A stretch of 64,000 bases of DNA from contig MKGP02000070.1 of assembly GCA_001913845.2 (NCBI GenBank), positions 1 through 64,000 on the forward strand. Direction: 5' to 3'. Below the pieces are notes generated by a model. It worked only from the letters and a program-made list of their open reading frames with translations. It was not told the DNA's origin and did not search any database. Shown piece by piece: positions 56,219-64,000 of the stretch. Position 1 is the stretch's first letter. The number at the start of each line of letters is the position of its first letter. Source of the DNA: Limnothrix sp. CACIAM 69d. GTDB taxonomy: Bacteria; Cyanobacteriota; Cyanobacteriia; CACIAM-69d. The translations under genes were made by a program, and so were the position numbers.

Positions 56219-59200
56219 ATGGCTCAACTTGAAGATTTGACAGTTGGTGCAACCGTTTCAGGGATCTTGCTCAACCAACCCGTAACCATTGTTGCAACCA
56301 TTGTCGCAACCCAGGAGTGTGACACGGAGGCGATCGAGCTGATCTACAAAGACCCAACAACAGGGCGCACAGGGAATCTGTTGATCTTCCGCGATGATGC
56401 CGCCAGCCTCGACATTGTGACCCATGGGCAACCTTGGAGTTTTGAGGGCGACGGGGAAGCGCTGCGCCTGGTGTCAGAAGCCCATCGAATTCGGCTTGCT
56501 TACCTGTTCGATCCGTTGCTGGCCGTGCACACCTCCGTGGTCGAACCCTTACCGCACCAAATTACGGCGGTCTATGGTGAAATGCTGGGTCGGCAACCTT
56601 TGCGGTTCTTGCTAGCCGACGATCCTGGGGCCGGCAAAACAATCATGGCCGGTCTGCTGATTCGTGAGCTGTTGCTGCGGGGGGATCTGCAACGTTGCTT
56701 GATTGTTTGCCCCGGTAGCTTGGCCCTGCAATGGCAAGACGAACTCTTTCAGAAGTTTCACTTGCCCTTTGAGATTCTAACGAACGATCGCCTAGAGGCC
56801 GCGAGAACCGGGAATGGCTTTGCGGAAACGCCCTTCGGCATCGCCCGGCTAGACAAACTCAGCCGCGATCGCGATTTGCACACCAAACTAGCCGCGACGG
56901 ACTGGGATTTGGTCGTGATGGACGAAGCCCACAAGCTCTCCGCCGCCGTTGTTGGGGGCGAGGTGCGCGAGACCCAGCGCTACAAACTGGGCAAGCTCTT
57001 GTCGGGGTTAACGCGCCATTTTTTGCTGATGACCGCCACGCCCCACAACGGCAAAGAAGAGGACTTTCAGCTTTTTTTGGGGTTACTCGATGGTGATCGC
57101 TTTGAAGGCTGCTTTCGGAGCGGGGCCAAGACTGGGGATGCGTCGGATTTGATTCGCCGGTTGGTCAAAGAAGATTTGCTCAAGTTTGATGGCAAGCCCC
57201 TGTTTCCTGAGCGACGGGCCCGCACGGTTCAGTACCAACTGTCTGACCTCGAAGCGTTGCTGTACAAGCAGGTGACGGATTATGTGCGGGACGAATTTGA
57301 CCGGGCCGACCAGCTTTTGAATGATGGACGGCGGGGCACGATCGGGTTTGCGCTGACGATTTTGCAGCGGCGCTTGGCTTCTTCTCCCGAAGCGATTTAC
57401 CAATCTTTGCGACGACGGCGCGATCGACTGCAAAAGCGATTGCGCGAAGAAGCATCCCTGAAACGTGGCCTAGATGCGGAGTTGGGATTTGGGCCCACGA
57501 TTAACCCGGAGGATTGGGACGACGACTTCGAGGATGCGTCCGGAACCGAGCGCGAGGCCACCGAAGAAGAGGTGGTTGATCGGGCAACGGCCGCGCGCAC
57601 CGTTGCCGAATTGCAGGCGGAAATCGATCGCCTACAGGAACTCGAACAACTGGCGCTACGGGTGCGACGCAGCGGCAAGGATCGCAAGTGGGATGAGCTG
57701 TCGCGGGTGATCCAAGAGGTGTTTCTGACCCGGGGCAATCCATCCCCGGAGGCGGAGCTAGAGACTGAGGGGGCGACCGAATCCCGATCGACCCGAAAGC
57801 TGGTGATCTTTACGGAGCACCGGGACACGCTGAATTATCTGAGCGATCGAATTAGAACCCTGCTGGGACGACCGGAAGCGATCGTCACCATTCACGGCAG
57901 CATTGGCCGAGACGAGCGCAAGCGCGCGGAAAATGCCTTTAAGCAAGATCCAGCGGTGGAAGTGTTGATCGCGACGGATGCGGCGGGGGAAGGGATTAAC
58001 CTCCAGCGGGCCCACCTGATGGTCAACTACGATTTGCCATGGAATCCCAATCGGCTGGAACAGCGATTTGGGCGCATCCACCGGATTGGTCAAACGGAAG
58101 TTTGCCATCTGTGGAACCTAGTGGCGGCGGAAACCCGCGAAGGCGATGTGTACCTGGCCCTGCTGAAAAAGCTAGAAATCGAACAGGCGGCCCTGGGGGG
58201 CAAGGTGTTTGATGTGCTGGGCAAGGCGATCGCGGGCAAAGAATTACGGGAATTACTGATCGAGGCCATTCGCTACGGGGAGCGACCGGATGTGAAGGCC
58301 AAGCTCGATCAAGTGGTCGATCGCCTCGATCACGATCGCCTGCGTGAGTTGCTGGAAGAACGGGCCCTGGCCCGCGACTCGATGGATATGAGCCAGGTGC
58401 AACAAATTCGCGCTGACATGGAACGGGCGGCGGCCCAGCGGCTCCAGCCCTACTTCGTGTCCGCCTTCTTTCTCGAAGCCTTCCAGCAATTGGGAGGCTC
58501 CATTCGCGAGCGGGAACCCAGGCGCTATGAAATTACCCATGTGCCATCGGTGATTCGCAATCGCGATCGGGCGATCGGCCAAGGTCGCCTGCTCCGGCGC
58601 TACGAGCGCATTTGCTTTGAGAAATCCTTGATGAAGCCGGTGGGCAAGCCCGATGCTGACCTGATTTGTCCTGGGCATCCCCTGTTGGATGCCACGCTGA
58701 GTGTGATCTTGGAGCGCCATCAATCGACCTTGCAACAGGGCGCGATCCTGGTGGATGACAACGACCCCAGCGAAACGGCCCGAATTTTGGTGTATCTCGA
58801 CCATGGGATTCAGGACGGCCGGATCGATCGCGCGGGCAACCGGCGGATTGTGTCGCGACGGATGCAGTATGTGGAAATTCCCCTTTGTGCGGCTTGTTTG
58901 GCGGGCCACTGCACGCCCGATCGCCACGAGGAGCACGAGGGCCACAACATGGGCTATGCACCCTATTTGGACTATCGATCGATCAGTCCTGAGGAGCGGT
59001 TGCTGCTGACTCCGCTCTTGGATCGGCTGGGATCGCGCCAAGATCTAGAACAACGGGCGCGCAATTATGCCATCAAGCACTTGGTCAACCATCACTGGCA
59101 AGAAGTCCGCGATCGCACCGAGCAAACCATCAGCAAAATCCTGCAAGCCGTGCGGGAGCGCCTAACCCAAGAAATCCTATATTGGGATGGCCGAGCCAAC

Positions 59201-59890
59201 CAGCTTGACGAGCAAGAAAAAGCCGGTAAGCCCAATGCCCGTCTCAACTCCACCAAGGCTCGCGAACGGGCCGACGAACTCGTGGCCCGGATGGACAAAC
59301 GGATCGAAGAACTAGAACAGGAGAAGCAACTTTCCCTGTTGCCGCCTACGGTGGTGAGTGGTTCTCTGGTGGTTTCGATCGGGCTGTTGCAGCGACTCCA
59401 GGGCAAGCGCGACTCGGGCCCCAACACCTTCGCGCGGGAAACCCGGCGGGTGGAGCTGGCGGCCATGGCGGCGGTGATGGCGGCGGAGCGGGCGGCGGGG
59501 CGCGAGCCTCAGGATGTGAGTGCCCAAAAATGCGGTTATGACATCTGCTCGACCGACCCGGCCACGGGCCAAAAATATTTGATTGAGGTCAAGGGACGGA
59601 TTGCGGGAGCCACTACGGTGACGGTGACGCGTAACGAAATTACCGTCAGCCTGAATTCGCGTCACTACTGGCTGGCGCTGGTGCAAGTGCCGATCGACCC
59701 CAGCTTCAGGGAGGGCGATGCATTTCGGGTGCGCGAGCGATCGGCCACCTATCAAGTGGGTCACGGGGGCTGCGTGGTGCGATATGTGCATCGGCCCTTC
59801 GATCGCGAACCCGACTGGGCCGTGACCAGCATCAACTACGACTGGCGCAAGCTCTGGGAGCGGGGCACGGAAACAATCTGGAAACAATAG
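56219..59890 (+). CDS. SNF2-type DEAD/DEAH helicase with C-terminal DUF3883-like domain
   Basis: A 1223-residue superfamily 2 helicase/translocase. Walker A is DDPGAGKT (134-141), Walker B DEAH at 235-238, motif III MTATPHNG, and the helicase C-terminal domain includes IFTEHRDTLNYL, ATDAAGEGINLQ and motif VI QRFGRIHRIGQ (615-625). A long insertion at about 420-500 is acidic and coiled. Around residues 890-915 there is a Cys/His cluster (CAACLAGHCTPDRHEEHEGH), a likely zinc site. Residues about 1085-1165 (GYDICSTDPATGQKYLIEVKGR) resemble DUF3883, a nuclease-like fold found in restriction systems. It leads the methylase and HEPN genes. I infer an anti-phage helicase, similar in role to class 1 DISARM DrmD or other methylase-linked helicases. 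Confidence 0.88.
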   Translation: MAQLEDLTVGATVSGILLNQPVTIVATIVATQECDTEAIELIYKDPTTGRTGNLLIFRDDAASLDIVTHGQPWSFEGDGEALRLVSEAHRIRLAYLFDPLLAVHTSVVEPLPHQITAVYGEMLGRQPLRFLLADDPGAGKTIMAGLLIRELLLRGDLQRCLIVCPGSLALQWQDELFQKFHLPFEILTNDRLEAARTGNGFAETPFGIARLDKLSRDRDLHTKLAATDWDLVVMDEAHKLSAAVVGGEVRETQRYKLGKLLSGLTRHFLLMTATPHNGKEEDFQLFLGLLDGDRFEGCFRSGAKTGDASDLIRRLVKEDLLKFDGKPLFPERRARTVQYQLSDLEALLYKQVTDYVRDEFDRADQLLNDGRRGTIGFALTILQRRLASSPEAIYQSLRRRRDRLQKRLREEASLKRGLDAELGFGPTINPEDWDDDFEDASGTEREATEEEVVDRATAARTVAELQAEIDRLQELEQLALRVRRSGKDRKWDELSRVIQEVFLTRGNPSPEAELETEGATESRSTRKLVIFTEHRDTLNYLSDRIRTLLGRPEAIVTIHGSIGRDERKRAENAFKQDPAVEVLIATDAAGEGINLQRAHLMVNYDLPWNPNRLEQRFGRIHRIGQTEVCHLWNLVAAETREGDVYLALLKKLEIEQAALGGKVFDVLGKAIAGKELRELLIEAIRYGERPDVKAKLDQVVDRLDHDRLRELLEERALARDSMDMSQVQQIRADMERAAAQRLQPYFVSAFFLEAFQQLGGSIREREPRRYEITHVPSVIRNRDRAIGQGRLLRRYERICFEKSLMKPVGKPDADLICPGHPLLDATLSVILERHQSTLQQGAILVDDNDPSETARILVYLDHGIQDGRIDRAGNRRIVSRRMQYVEIPLCAACLAGHCTPDRHEEHEGHNMGYAPYLDYRSISPEERLLLTPLLDRLGSRQDLEQRARNYAIKHLVNHHWQEVRDRTEQTISKILQAVRERLTQEILYWDGRANQLDEQEKAGKPNARLNSTKARERADELVARMDKRIEELEQEKQLSLLPPTVVSGSLVVSIGLLQRLQGKRDSGPNTFARETRRVELAAMAAVMAAERAAGREPQDVSAQKCGYDICSTDPATGQKYLIEVKGRIAGATTVTVTRNEITVSLNSRHYWLALVQVPIDPSFREGDAFRVRERSATYQVGHGGCVVRYVHRPFDREPDWAVTSINYDWRKLWERGTETIWKQ

Positions 59891-59922: not shown

Positions 59923-60130
59923 CTACGATTAGGGCAGGACTTTGAAGGGACTAGACCTCCTGCACAAATCAGCAAACCCCTTGTCTCAAGATGAGCCGAT
60001 AAACGATCATTTCGTAGGTTGGGTTGAGGCACGAAACCCAACAGCGACAAGCTTGGTGCCGATCGAGTTGGGTTTCGCAAAGCTCAACCCAACCTACTAG
60101 CTACGATTACGAAAGGACTTTGAAGGGACT
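59923..60130. repeat. Repeat cluster at the helicase-methylase junction
   Basis: Direct repeats of about 30 bases (ctacgatta..aggactttgaagggact) at 59923-59952 and 60101-60130 flank an insert. The insert starts with the MITE-like end tagacctcctgcac (59952) and includes an inverted repeat (gtaggttgggttgag at 60014, ctcaacccaacctac ending 60097) with an inner gaaacccaac/gttgggtttcg pair. The second direct-repeat copy is the leader and ribosome-binding region of the methylase gene. Confidence 0.65.
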
Positions 60131-60135
60131 GAATC

Positions 60136-63054
60136 ATGGCGGATCGCAAAAAGTTGATCGAGGTGGCGTTGCCCCTGGAAGCGATCAACATGGAATCGGC
60201 GCGGGAAAAGTCGATTCGCCATGGTCACCCCAGTACGTTGCATTTGTGGTGGGCGCGGCGGCCGTTGGCGGCTTGTCGGGCGGTGTTGTGGGCTTCGTTG
60301 GTGGATGACCCGAGCAGTTGGCCGGAGAAGTTCCCGACTGTGGCCGCGCAGGAGCAGGAACGGCAACGGCTGTTTGACATCCTGGGACGGATCGAGACGG
60401 AAACGGACAAGAAAGGCAACACCAAGCAAGTGGTGCGCGGGTTGGTGTCTTGGGATCAGATCAACGATCCCAAGTCGGGTGTGTTGGAGCAGGCCCAAGC
60501 GGAAATTGCCCGATGTTTGGCTTGGGAGCGCGGTGAGGAACCGCCCCAGGATCCGGCGGCTGTGCGGGATTACATTGCGCGGTATGCGCCGCCGGCCTAT
60601 GACCCCTTTGCGGGGGGTGGGTCGATTCCGTTGGAGGCCCAGCGGTTGGGATTAGAGGCCCACGCGAGCGACTTGAATCCGGTGGCGGTGTTGATTAACA
60701 AGGCGTTGATCGAGATTCCGCCGAAGTTTAAGGATCAGTACCCGGTGAATGGGGACGATCGAGCTAAGAAAAATATTTCGTCCTGGCGGGGCGCTCAGGG
60801 ATTGGCGGCGGATGTGCGGCACTACGGGGCTTGGATGCGCGATCGCGCTTTTGAGCGCATTGGGCATTTGTACCCGAAGGTGGCGCTACCGACGGAGTTG
60901 GGCGGCGGCGAGGCGACGGTGATCGCTTGGCTGTGGGCGCGGACGGTGACTTGCCCAAACCCGGCTTGTGGTTGCTCGATGCCGTTGGTGCGGAGTTTCC
61001 AGCTTTCGACCAAGAAGGGCAAGGAAGCTTGGGTGGAGCCGGGTGTGGTGCGTCGGGATGGCCAGCCGCCCCAAATTCAGTTTGTGGTGCAGTCGGGTGA
61101 GGGAACGCCGCCGGAGGGAACGGTGGAACGCAAGGGGGCGCGGTGTGTGGCCTGTGAAACGCCTGTGCCGTTGGAGTATGTGCGGTCTGAGGGCCGCGCG
61201 GGGCGGATGGGCGCTCAGTTGATGGCGATCGTGGCGGAAGGAAAATCGGGTCGCATTTATCTGGCTCCGACGGCAGAACAGGAAGCAATCGCTAATTCTG
61301 CTGAACCGGACTGGAAACCGGATACAGATTTACCGAAGGAAGCGTTGGGTTTTCGTGTCCAAAACTACGGCATGACGAAACACGCTGATCTGTTTACGAA
61401 TCGCCAATTGGTTGCGCTAACGACGTTCAGCGATTTGGTGGCAGAAGTGAAGGAAAAGGCGATCGCGGATGCAGTGGCGGCGGGCTTGCCCAACGATGAT
61501 CAACCCCTCAGTGAAGGCGGCATAGGAGCTAGGGCTTATGGAGAGGCGATCGCTACTTATTTGGCTTTTTCTGTTGATCGAAGTGTTGATCGAAATTCAA
61601 CTATCTGCTCATGGGACTCAAGCCCCAAGATGGAAGCGCTTAGAAATACATTTGCCAGGCAAGCAATTCCAATGACCTGGGATTTTGCAGAAGGCAATAC
61701 CTTCAGTAATTCATCTGGCAATTGGACTAGTAATATTGACTGGGTAGTAAAAGTTATCGAAGGGTTATCTCTGGAGTCCACATCTAAGGTCTTTCAACAT
61801 AACGCAACCACAGAACATCTAAATGATATTGAGAAGAAGGTAGTCTCTACAGATCCACCCTATTACGACAACATTGGTTACGCCGACCTTTCAGATTTTT
61901 TTTATGTTTGGCTACGGCGCTCGCTTAGTTCTATCTATTCAACAATCTTCAGTACCCTCTTAGTTCCTAAATCTCAAGAGTTAGTTGCTACACCCTATCG
62001 TTTTGGTGGCAGTAAACAAAAAGCCCAAGAATTTTTTGAAGAAGCTCTAGGACAGGCTTTTCAACGAATGTATGAGGTTTCTCATGCCGATTATCCGCTA
62101 ACGGTTTACTACGCCTTTAAGCAAGCGGAAACCGACCAGAAGGGTAAGGATAACGAATCCATTGCCTCTACGGGTTGGGAAACTATGCTAGAGGGCCTCA
62201 TCAAAGCCAACTTCAGTATCAACGGCACTTGGCCGATGCGCAGTGAACTCAGCAATCGAATGGTTGCATCAGGAACCAACGCGCTTGCCTCCTCGATCGT
62301 TCTGGTTTGTCGCCCCCGCTCTGCCGATGCTCCCAAAACAACCCGGCGGCAATTTTTGAGCGAACTGAAACGGGAACTACCCGAAGCCCTCAAAACTCTT
62401 CAACAGGGCAACATTGCCCCCGTAGACCTCGCCCAAGCCAGCATTGGCCCCGGTATGGCCGTTTATTCGCAATATGCCGCCGTCCTCGAAAACGACGGAT
62501 CGCCCCTGCGCGTCCGCACCGCCCTGCAACTGATTAACCAACTGCTCGACGAATACTTCACCGAACAAGAAGGCGAATTCGACGGCGACACCCGCTGGGC
62601 CCTCACCTGGTTTGAGCAACACCAGTTCAACCCCGGCCCCTACGGCGAAGCGGAAACCCTCTCCAAAGCCCGTAACGTCAGCGTCCAAGGCCTCGTGGAA
62701 TCCGGTATTTTGGAAGCCAAAGCCGGCAAAGTACGCCTGCTGAAGCGAGACGAACTCCCCAAAGGCTGGAACCCCGCCCAGGACGATCGCACCCCCGACT
62801 GGGAAGCCACCCAACACCTGATTCACTGCCTCGACAAGGATGGCGAACTGGCCGCCGCGGCCCTGTTGGCGGCCCTGGGCGATCGATCCGAACGGGCCCG
62901 CGACCTGGCCTATCGGCTCTATAGCCTCTGCGACAAAAAAGGCTGGGCCCAAGAGGCGATCGCCTACAACAGCCTCGTGATCGCCTGGCCCGAACTCCAA
63001 CGCCTCGGACAGCCGATCGCCGACTCCGATAGTCAACTAGGTCTGGGGATCTAA
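60136..63054 (+). CDS. DUF1156 zinc-ribbon DNA methylase (adenine/cytosine-amino type)
   Basis: 972 residues. The first 80 residues are a classic DUF1156 start (LIEVALPLEAINMESAREKS, HGHPSTLHLWWARRPLAACRAVL). The SAM-binding motif is DPFAGGGSIPLEA (from 156). A zinc ribbon uses Cys273, Cys278/280, Cys337 and Cys340. The catalytic motif DPPYYDN is at 573-579, so it should methylate an exocyclic amino group (N6-adenine or N4-cytosine). The C-terminal ~330 residues are a helical module of unknown role. In defence loci such enzymes mark self DNA. The middle (about 61540-62080) is much more A+T rich than both ends, suggesting recombination. ATG 60136; the leader gaaggg may serve as ribosome-binding site. 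Confidence 0.92.
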   Translation: MADRKKLIEVALPLEAINMESAREKSIRHGHPSTLHLWWARRPLAACRAVLWASLVDDPSSWPEKFPTVAAQEQERQRLFDILGRIETETDKKGNTKQVVRGLVSWDQINDPKSGVLEQAQAEIARCLAWERGEEPPQDPAAVRDYIARYAPPAYDPFAGGGSIPLEAQRLGLEAHASDLNPVAVLINKALIEIPPKFKDQYPVNGDDRAKKNISSWRGAQGLAADVRHYGAWMRDRAFERIGHLYPKVALPTELGGGEATVIAWLWARTVTCPNPACGCSMPLVRSFQLSTKKGKEAWVEPGVVRRDGQPPQIQFVVQSGEGTPPEGTVERKGARCVACETPVPLEYVRSEGRAGRMGAQLMAIVAEGKSGRIYLAPTAEQEAIANSAEPDWKPDTDLPKEALGFRVQNYGMTKHADLFTNRQLVALTTFSDLVAEVKEKAIADAVAAGLPNDDQPLSEGGIGARAYGEAIATYLAFSVDRSVDRNSTICSWDSSPKMEALRNTFARQAIPMTWDFAEGNTFSNSSGNWTSNIDWVVKVIEGLSLESTSKVFQHNATTEHLNDIEKKVVSTDPPYYDNIGYADLSDFFYVWLRRSLSSIYSTIFSTLLVPKSQELVATPYRFGGSKQKAQEFFEEALGQAFQRMYEVSHADYPLTVYYAFKQAETDQKGKDNESIASTGWETMLEGLIKANFSINGTWPMRSELSNRMVASGTNALASSIVLVCRPRSADAPKTTRRQFLSELKRELPEALKTLQQGNIAPVDLAQASIGPGMAVYSQYAAVLENDGSPLRVRTALQLINQLLDEYFTEQEGEFDGDTRWALTWFEQHQFNPGPYGEAETLSKARNVSVQGLVESGILEAKAGKVRLLKRDELPKGWNPAQDDRTPDWEATQHLIHCLDKDGELAAAALLAALGDRSERARDLAYRLYSLCDKKGWAQEAIAYNSLVIAWPELQRLGQPIADSDSQLGLGI

Positions 63055-63083: not shown

Positions 63084-63494
63084 TGAGGAGTGAGGAGCGA
63101 GAATTGAGGAGTGAGTTAGCCCTAGGGCACATCATCATTTCCTAGGATCAAGCTGAAAAAGCCAATTTTCTACGCCCCAACCCCGGTAGACAAGGGGCTT
63201 AGGGCCTGTCATCAATTCCATCGCTGTAGGGGTTGGGTCTCCCAACCCTGACCCGAGCGATCGCTCCAAACCCGTCCAAGTCTAGGAATATCACGGATCG
63301 TGGGGGCTGGGCGGGGAGACCCCGCCCCTACAACTGATCGGTTGGGAGAACGCAAGAATCAGGGTTTCAGGGATTTGATGACAGGCCCTAAGCCCCTTGC
63401 CCCCCACGATCAAGCAACGCAAGAATCAGGGTTTTAGGCAATTTGACGACCCTCCCCAACTGCTCCCTCCTCAATTCTCGCCCCTCCATCCTCA
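63084..63494. repeat. Nested inverted-repeat element filling the spacer
   Basis: Outer arms 63084-63115 and 63463-63494 pair at about 28 of 32 positions. Inner arms 63191-63215 and 63375-63399 (caaggggcttagggcctgtcatcaa) are perfect over 25 bases. Further inside, tgtaggggttgggtctccc pairs imperfectly with ggagaccccgcccctaca. A direct repeat of about 32 bases (cgcaagaatcagggttt...) overlaps the right arm (63351, 63419). No gene lies inside. The arrangement fits one or two stacked MITE-like palindromes. It ends 13 bases before the next start codon. Confidence 0.7.
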
Positions 63495-63507: not shown

Positions 63508-64000
63508 ATGGCCCTAAGCAACCACGAACGAGTTGGCCGCGCGCTCAAGCTCCTGCACGAGGGACTCTATCCCTACCTTGAGCGAGAAATGCAAGCCACC
63601 TACAAGGCCCAATGGCTCCTGCGGGCTGCCGCTTTTTTTGACAAAGACAGCACCACCGCCCAAGCCAAGCTCAAAACCGATCTCTACGACTTCCTCAAGT
63701 TCATGTGGAACGAGTGGAATGAGGTATTTCGCAAAACCCTCGGCAAGGCCGAACGCAGCCTGTTGTCCGAGTGCCAAGATATCCGCAACACCTGGGCCCA
63801 CAATTCCACCTGCACCACCGATGATGCCTATCGGGCCCTCGACACGATCGAGCGGCTGCTGTCGGCCGTGTCCGCCCCCGAAGCCAACCAGGTCGAAAAA
63901 CAAAAACAAGAGCTGTTGCGCGCCCGGTTTGAAGACCAAGCCCGCCGCGAAACCCGCCGCACCGCCTCCACACCCACAGACGGCCAACCCCAGGCCGGCC
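63508..64000 (+). CDS. Swt1-type HEPN domain protein, N-terminal part (gene cut by window end)
   Basis: An open frame of 164 codons from ATG 63508 that continues past the window. It begins MALSNHERVGRALKLLHEGL and has YLEREMQATYK, the start typical of Swt1-like HEPN domains fused to DUF499/AAA ATPases. The HEPN RNase motif R-x4-H is present as RNTWAH (Arg93, His98). The last ~30 residues visible are charged, with QARRETRR, a linker. I infer a large ATP-binding protein of the same operon as the helicase and methylase; the ATPase part is not in the window. No Shine-Dalgarno sequence is clear, since the nested repeat ends just upstream. Confidence 0.8.
   Translation, partial: MALSNHERVGRALKLLHEGLYPYLEREMQATYKAQWLLRAAAFFDKDSTTAQAKLKTDLYDFLKFMWNEWNEVFRKTLGKAERSLLSECQDIRNTWAHNSTCTTDDAYRALDTIERLLSAVSAPEANQVEKQKQELLRARFEDQARRETRRTASTPTDGQPQAG

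Follow-up and report, generated by a model that had tools for sequence, protein, structure and literature searches.

The window analysed here, a 64,000-nucleotide stretch of contig MKGP02000070.1 of Limnothrix sp. CACIAM 69d, ends in a colinear run of three forward-strand genes, hmaA-hmaB-hmaC (56219–66867), each of which matches its PADLOC model with E=0 and which together make up the gene content of an Hma system. The first, hmaA (56219..59890), encodes a SNF2-type helicase with a NOV_C domain (Pfam SNF2-rel_dom, Helicase_C and NOV_C). It is followed by hmaB (60136..63054), which encodes a DUF1156 DNA methylase of 972 aa that matches its PADLOC model over the full length and carries the Pfam DUF1156 domain in residues 11–82. 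Only the start of hmaC lies in the window (63511..64000); the gene crosses the window border, runs on to contig position 66867 and encodes a HEPN_Swt1 domain and a DUF499 ATPase (both Pfam matches). As judged from these similarities, the locus is a putative helicase-methylase-ATPase (Hma) defence operon, alias DUF499 BREX-related, and the hmaB product is the predicted methylase of this anti-phage system. Two other genomes of the genus were compared, one of which (G001) possesses the operon. Similarity to G001 starts at the start codon of hmaA (56219); nothing in the G001 contig matches the compared 2.2 kb upstream of it, and the left context of the operon thus differs between the two genomes. 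The intergenic segments around hmaB (59940–60110 and 63160–63400) have many dispersed matches, 80–90% identical, in all three genomes of the genus and belong to REP-like or MITE-like families.

In the AlphaFold2 model of HmaB (pLDDT 86.8), a Rossmann core is interrupted after strand 2 by a long insert (residues ~200–510) and resumes near residues 516–572. The SAM-binding motif I, DPFAGGG (residues 156–162; 60601..60621, forward strand, as for all features of hmaB below), comes after strand 1 of the modelled core and is near-invariant in 67 homologues. The predicted target-recognition insert separates core strands 2 and 3 (60733..61665, edges approximate), the same insert in which PMC12839542 places the target-recognition domain (TRD) of these systems. 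In the catalytic motif IV, DPPYYDN (residues 573–579; 61852..61872), D573, P574, P575 and Y576 are invariant in 67 homologues. The order of SAM motif, insert and DPPY motif is that of alpha-class enzymes. The DPPY motif and PMC12839542 point to N6-adenine as the likely base target; PMC8565338 calls HmaB an m5C enzyme. A PDB sequence search with HmaB found no relative, and a Foldseek search with the model found no match at E <= 0.001; VIA-align recovered only the class I methyltransferase core, aligned to Trm11/Trm14/TrmN-type methyltransferases with Z about 16.

Several homologues contain additional sequence in the insert. In-frame extra sequence is found near residues 205–312 in L166 (G028), L034 (RI_101), L170 (G326), L176 (G069) and L177 (G101); in G028 and RI_101 it consists of interspersed-repeat peptides, for example NHGDTEDTENLRDLCASVV, and is apparently tolerated. 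A DUF559 domain (Vsr-like endonuclease), flanked by such peptides, is present in frame near residue 255 in L174 (G010, Pfam match) and L007 (G021, same sequence type). Mediterraneibacter (G388:C1:240715-245708; L179, L208) encodes two tandem hmaB-like genes, the second being 41% identical to the first over the initial 760 residues.

The sequence-only reading had described an A+T-rich segment at 61540–62080, with different codon choice and with DPPYYDN inside it, between GC-rich gene ends, and each of these points was borne out. The GC content of 61540–62080 is 0.409, compared to a window mean of 0.566 and to 0.622 and 0.609 at the gene ends (60136–61244 and 62341–63054, respectively); the catalytic motif does fall within the segment. 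Codon adaptation to hmaA usage drops from 0.7–0.8 to 0.40–0.53 across codons 451–650. GC3 of the segment is 0.308, as opposed to 0.569 ± 0.032 in 5000 synonymous shuffles using the codons of hmaB itself (z −8.3; 0/5000 as low); the shuffles never reach the observed value and, therefore, amino-acid composition does not explain the dip. The composition plot, which had been named as a check, is anything but flat. Equally AT-rich windows of the same length are rare in the 64 kb (71/6346), and the other two places where they occur are largely intergenic. The edges given for the segment were less accurate: the best two GC3 change points lie at 61237 and 62107, and a milder first dip (GC 0.49) at 61245–61400 had been overlooked. 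HIP1 sites, which that reading had noted in the GC-rich ends, do occur there at 60839, 61459 and 62956, but a fourth site, at 61546, is situated on the left edge of the segment and is the only one within it.

Comparison with G001 points to replacement of the same region. In G001, hmaB appears split over two contigs, with residues 314–453 missing. The dS between the two genes is 0.30 for residues 1–313 and 0.28 for residues 721–972, but rises to between 1.4 and saturation in residues 471–720. This synonymous saturation extends to residues 571–690 despite 70–93% amino-acid identity, so protein-level selection is not its cause. Amino-acid identity falls to 32% in residues 481–510. Judging from dS, a BLASTN gap (61545–61784) and the alignment, the probably recombined tract spans 61545..62340, with a fuzzy right edge (62300–62340). 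Thus, of the two breakpoints that had been proposed, the left one (near 61540) holds, and the right one (near 62080) should be moved to 62300–62340. The HIP1 palindrome GCGATCGC at 61546 coincides with the left breakpoint and G001 has no HIP1 there, which may be chance. The middle of the G001 gene is likewise AT-rich, yet of different sequence, so either or both middles may have been replaced. When 388 genomes of the class were searched for a possible source of the middle, no close donor emerged, the best match having 77% amino-acid identity (G185). In trees of the hmaB ends, this genome and G001 are sisters with support of 100/100. In the tree of the whole middle they are not, yet the AU test does not reject their sisterhood (p 0.27) and the tree of residues 571–735 groups them (98/91); accordingly, this case is one of divergence, not of topology, and we do not claim a topological conflict for the pair. 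A second sharp mosaic segment, absent among the Thermus alleles described below, is the C-terminal half of hmaC (contig ~65500–66750, beyond the window): hmaC is 95–100% identical to that of G001 at the amino-acid level up to ~65490, after which dS jumps from 0.00 to 0.5–0.7 within one 60-codon block.

The same pattern recurs in other lineages. Close pairs of homologues from other groups have low synonymous divergence at both ends of the gene and high divergence in the middle, as in L043/L066, with pS values of 0.23/0.82/0.22. Among cyanobacteria, the middle of hmaB comes in two deep types that have switched at least six times on the tree of the ends. The sequence-only reading had set congruent trees of all segments as an observation that would tell against recombination; the ends and the middle are in conflict, as the ends reject one middle type as a clade (AU test, p 6e-4) and a clade recovered with the ends is in turn rejected by the middle (p ~6e-35). 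The tested clades were chosen after tree inspection, which makes these p values optimistic, and the log-likelihood differences are large (67 and 78).

The finest resolution comes from ten plasmid hmaB alleles of Thermus thermophilus, which have a mean identity of 96% outside residues 353–560. Their variation forms three boxes, residues 383–417, 478–510 and 523–550, with mean nucleotide identities of 62%, 61% and 82%, respectively (minimum 50% in the third). The four-gamete test fails for each pairing of boxes, so the boxes have been exchanged separately; two pairs of alleles, L124 vs L126 and L131 vs L133, differ in a single box, the second. Between Nodularia and Anabaenopsis, the differences are found almost solely in the same boxes and in a loop at residues 701–720. 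In the gene studied here, hypervariable box V1 (residues 383–417; 61282..61386), in which the Nodularia and Anabaenopsis proteins are 25% identical at residues 401–420, and box V2 (residues 478–510; 61567..61665), which includes the stretch that is 32% identical to G001, are loops of the insert in the model. Box V3 (residues ~521–560; 61696..61815) is situated where the insert returns to the core, and family conservation is lowest at residues 526–570. A possible fourth variable loop, V4 (residues 701–718; 62236..62289), is 53% identical between the Nodularia and Anabaenopsis proteins and 88% identical in nucleotide sequence at ~705 among the Thermus alleles, and has low pLDDT at residues 705–718. 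The V1 of this genome is 87–97% identical to that of six distant cyanobacteria and 30–57% identical to that of most others; one Thermus V1 allele closely resembles it. DPPYYDN and the sequence after it are conserved, with no exchange there in Thermus or in Nodularia and Anabaenopsis, and the motif is, on this comparative evidence, a passenger in the longer tract that separates this genome from G001. The sequence-only reading had placed the likely target-recognition part in the AT-rich segment, and this needs correction: the segment as a whole does not represent the presumed specificity part, and the hypervariable boxes lie upstream of the motif.

The partner proteins behave differently from HmaB in the Thermus set. 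HmaC has no box, with at least 92% and mostly 97–100% identity in every 30-codon window, and no co-variation with the HmaB boxes was seen among these alleles; HmaA likewise has no box (92–100% mean identity per 90-base window). The near-constancy of HmaA and HmaC, set against the shuffled HmaB boxes, speaks for HmaB being the protein that reads the DNA word. In strain SG0.5JP17-16, the hma operon on plasmid NC_017273.1 contains a TnpB-related gene (L131:7618-9204) between toxin-antitoxin genes.

Taken together, the dS jump relative to G001, the discordant cyanobacterial trees and the box reassortment in Thermus bear out the proposed mosaicism, and the view that the middle of hmaB is mosaic through recombination is well supported by these sequence comparisons. 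The exchange and its location are direct observations; how the composition dip arose is a separate question. Of 84 near-complete homologues, which represent many phyla, 83 have an amino-acid-corrected GC3 in residues 471–710 below that of their ends, by a mean of 0.19. The family profile declines from residue ~270–330, reaches its minimum at 481–570 and recovers past 720. These data allow for an intrinsic AT-richness, with selection on synonymous sites or DNA properties over the insert keeping GC3 low in all lineages and making this strain unexceptional. The dip is also present in nine further Firmicutes alleles (it is absent in the AT-rich host L077), and the GC3 of the middle follows that of the host with a slope of 0.80; it is shifted downward, not towards one value, so that there is no clean regression to a common pool composition. 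However, intrinsic AT-richness predicts neither saturated dS between sister species nor tree conflict nor box reassortment, and the scatter around host GC3 is twice as large in the middle as at the gene ends (0.109 vs 0.054). Furthermore, alleles of the same box differ in GC within one species: the V2 block ranges from 43 to 61% GC among the Thermus alleles, in a gene of ~70% GC, which points to composition going with the imported allele and not with the site. We regard the intrinsic reading as unlikely, but such a cause may contribute to the family-wide bias, which import explains only partly; import alone accounts for a bias that is almost always downward only if donors are regularly AT-richer. 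The gradient in homologues, which had been put forward as a refutation of recombination, does exist but does not refute it, because this region has been replaced repeatedly and separately in different homologues.

Two other mechanisms that could produce a local mosaic appear very improbable. One is the footprint of intein homing, in which entry or loss of an intein at DPPY^YDN is accompanied by repair that co-converts the flanking coding sequence. An intein of ~433 aa with Hint and LAGLIDADG domains does occupy exactly this site in two other cyanobacteria of different families (L173 of G046, confirmed by Pfam, and L175 of G148, by sequence), and the site, ~61863/61864 in the window, is near the centre of the tract. 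However, the intein is absent from G001 and from this genome, where the 972-aa HmaB has neither an in-frame insert nor a Pfam Hint match. The family dip is deepest upstream of the site, at residues 481–570, and the Thermus boxes are located 60–190 residues upstream, with 92–100% identity mostly retained at the site itself. The other mechanism is programmed phase variation, with a recombinase or silent cassettes switching the hmaB middle within one genome. The arrangement of the variation in discrete boxes at constant positions is reminiscent of cassette systems and the G001 assembly breaks within hmaB, but hmaB and its middle each have a single match in their own genome, no recombinase gene is found among the immediate neighbours, and the G001 break is near the site of interspersed repeats in homologues. 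Fast point mutation under diversifying selection without exchange, suggested by the peaks of amino-acid divergence in the boxes, is hardly credible given that synonymous sites are saturated even at 70–93% amino-acid identity and that box alleles of nearly the same sequence are found on different backgrounds.

We therefore favour, with considerable though not complete confidence, the reading that the middle of hmaB is exchanged by recombination, that its recognition loops are under selection and that specificity is probably altered as a result. The GC-rich ends (the DUF1156 part with the SAM site and the C-terminal helical part) would form a scaffold evolving with the host, and the middle would be replaced through homologous recombination with hmaB alleles from other lineages, the conserved sequence on either side serving as anchor. 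In the present case, a tract of about 61545–62340 would have been replaced either in this genome or in G001. We infer that the dip reflects donors that are on average more AT-rich; the catalytic motif would have come along as a passenger. Selection would most likely act on three (perhaps four) short loops in or just after the recognition insert, upstream of the catalytic motif. By analogy with other methylases, HmaB probably sets the specificity of protection as well as of attack and box exchange likely changes DNA specificity, so loop replacement would probably alter which DNA word is marked by methylation in the host and targeted in the phage. Phage pressure, which we also infer, would favour new words, and exchange probably lets the defence change the protected word with its other components left as they are. 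A more speculative extension, to which we give distinctly less than even credence, is a combinatorial recognition code in which three to four loops, exchanged independently across species and phyla, would each read part of the DNA word with an unchanged helicase and ATPase, the AT bias marking a permanently travelling module.

If this reading is true, HmaB alone would set the specificity of a defence system that has been reported from 26 phyla (PMC8565338), its target word would be predictable, and perhaps changeable, from loops of ~30 residues, and such exchange would explain how these systems keep pace with phages adapted to one DNA word. The existing Thermus strains already offer naturally occurring box combinations from which the code could be read; a literature search turned up no methylome paper on Thermus strains carrying these plasmids.

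Hma, as defined by PADLOC (PMC8565338), corresponds to the Type-1 DUF499-centred BREX-related (BR) systems of PMC12839542, and the locus described here shares with them the hmaA-hmaB-hmaC gene set, the DUF1156 methylase with a TRD insert after core strand 2, and the HEPN and DUF499 ATPase protein. Unlike in the present analysis, recombinational exchange, hypervariable boxes and a composition dip are not described in the accessible parts of these accounts. Nor was any report of recognition-box exchange in HmaB or DUF1156 proteins found in the searchable full-text literature. In BREX, PglX/BrxX has been found by experiment to be the specificity factor for methylation and attack (PMC11341690); as with PglX, a single methylase would set the specificity of both marking and attack in a multi-gene defence system, a role presumed for HmaB. 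PglX differs in being a gamma-class enzyme with a C-terminal TRD, whereas the TRD of HmaB is an insert before the catalytic motif. Type I HsdS of Helicobacter (PMC3077401, PMC3983042) likewise exchanges recognition modules by recombination to change specificity, as we suggest for HmaB, but HsdS forms a specificity subunit of its own and its recognition sequences can also change position within the gene, whereas HmaB boxes were seen only at homologous positions. The closest parallel in pattern is Type III modA of phasevarions (PMC3311624), with conserved ends, a variable central recognition domain and mosaicism by horizontal recombination; in modA12, the exchanged part also has a lower GC content. 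HmaB resembles modA in the conserved ends and variable centre of close relatives and in tree conflict with shared alleles on different backgrounds. It belongs, however, to a different methylase family, and modA domains are exchanged mostly as one unit, whereas the short boxes of HmaB reassort separately. Swapping of recognition domains is thus already known from modA and HsdS; separately reassorting boxes in HmaB appear to be new in the literature searched.
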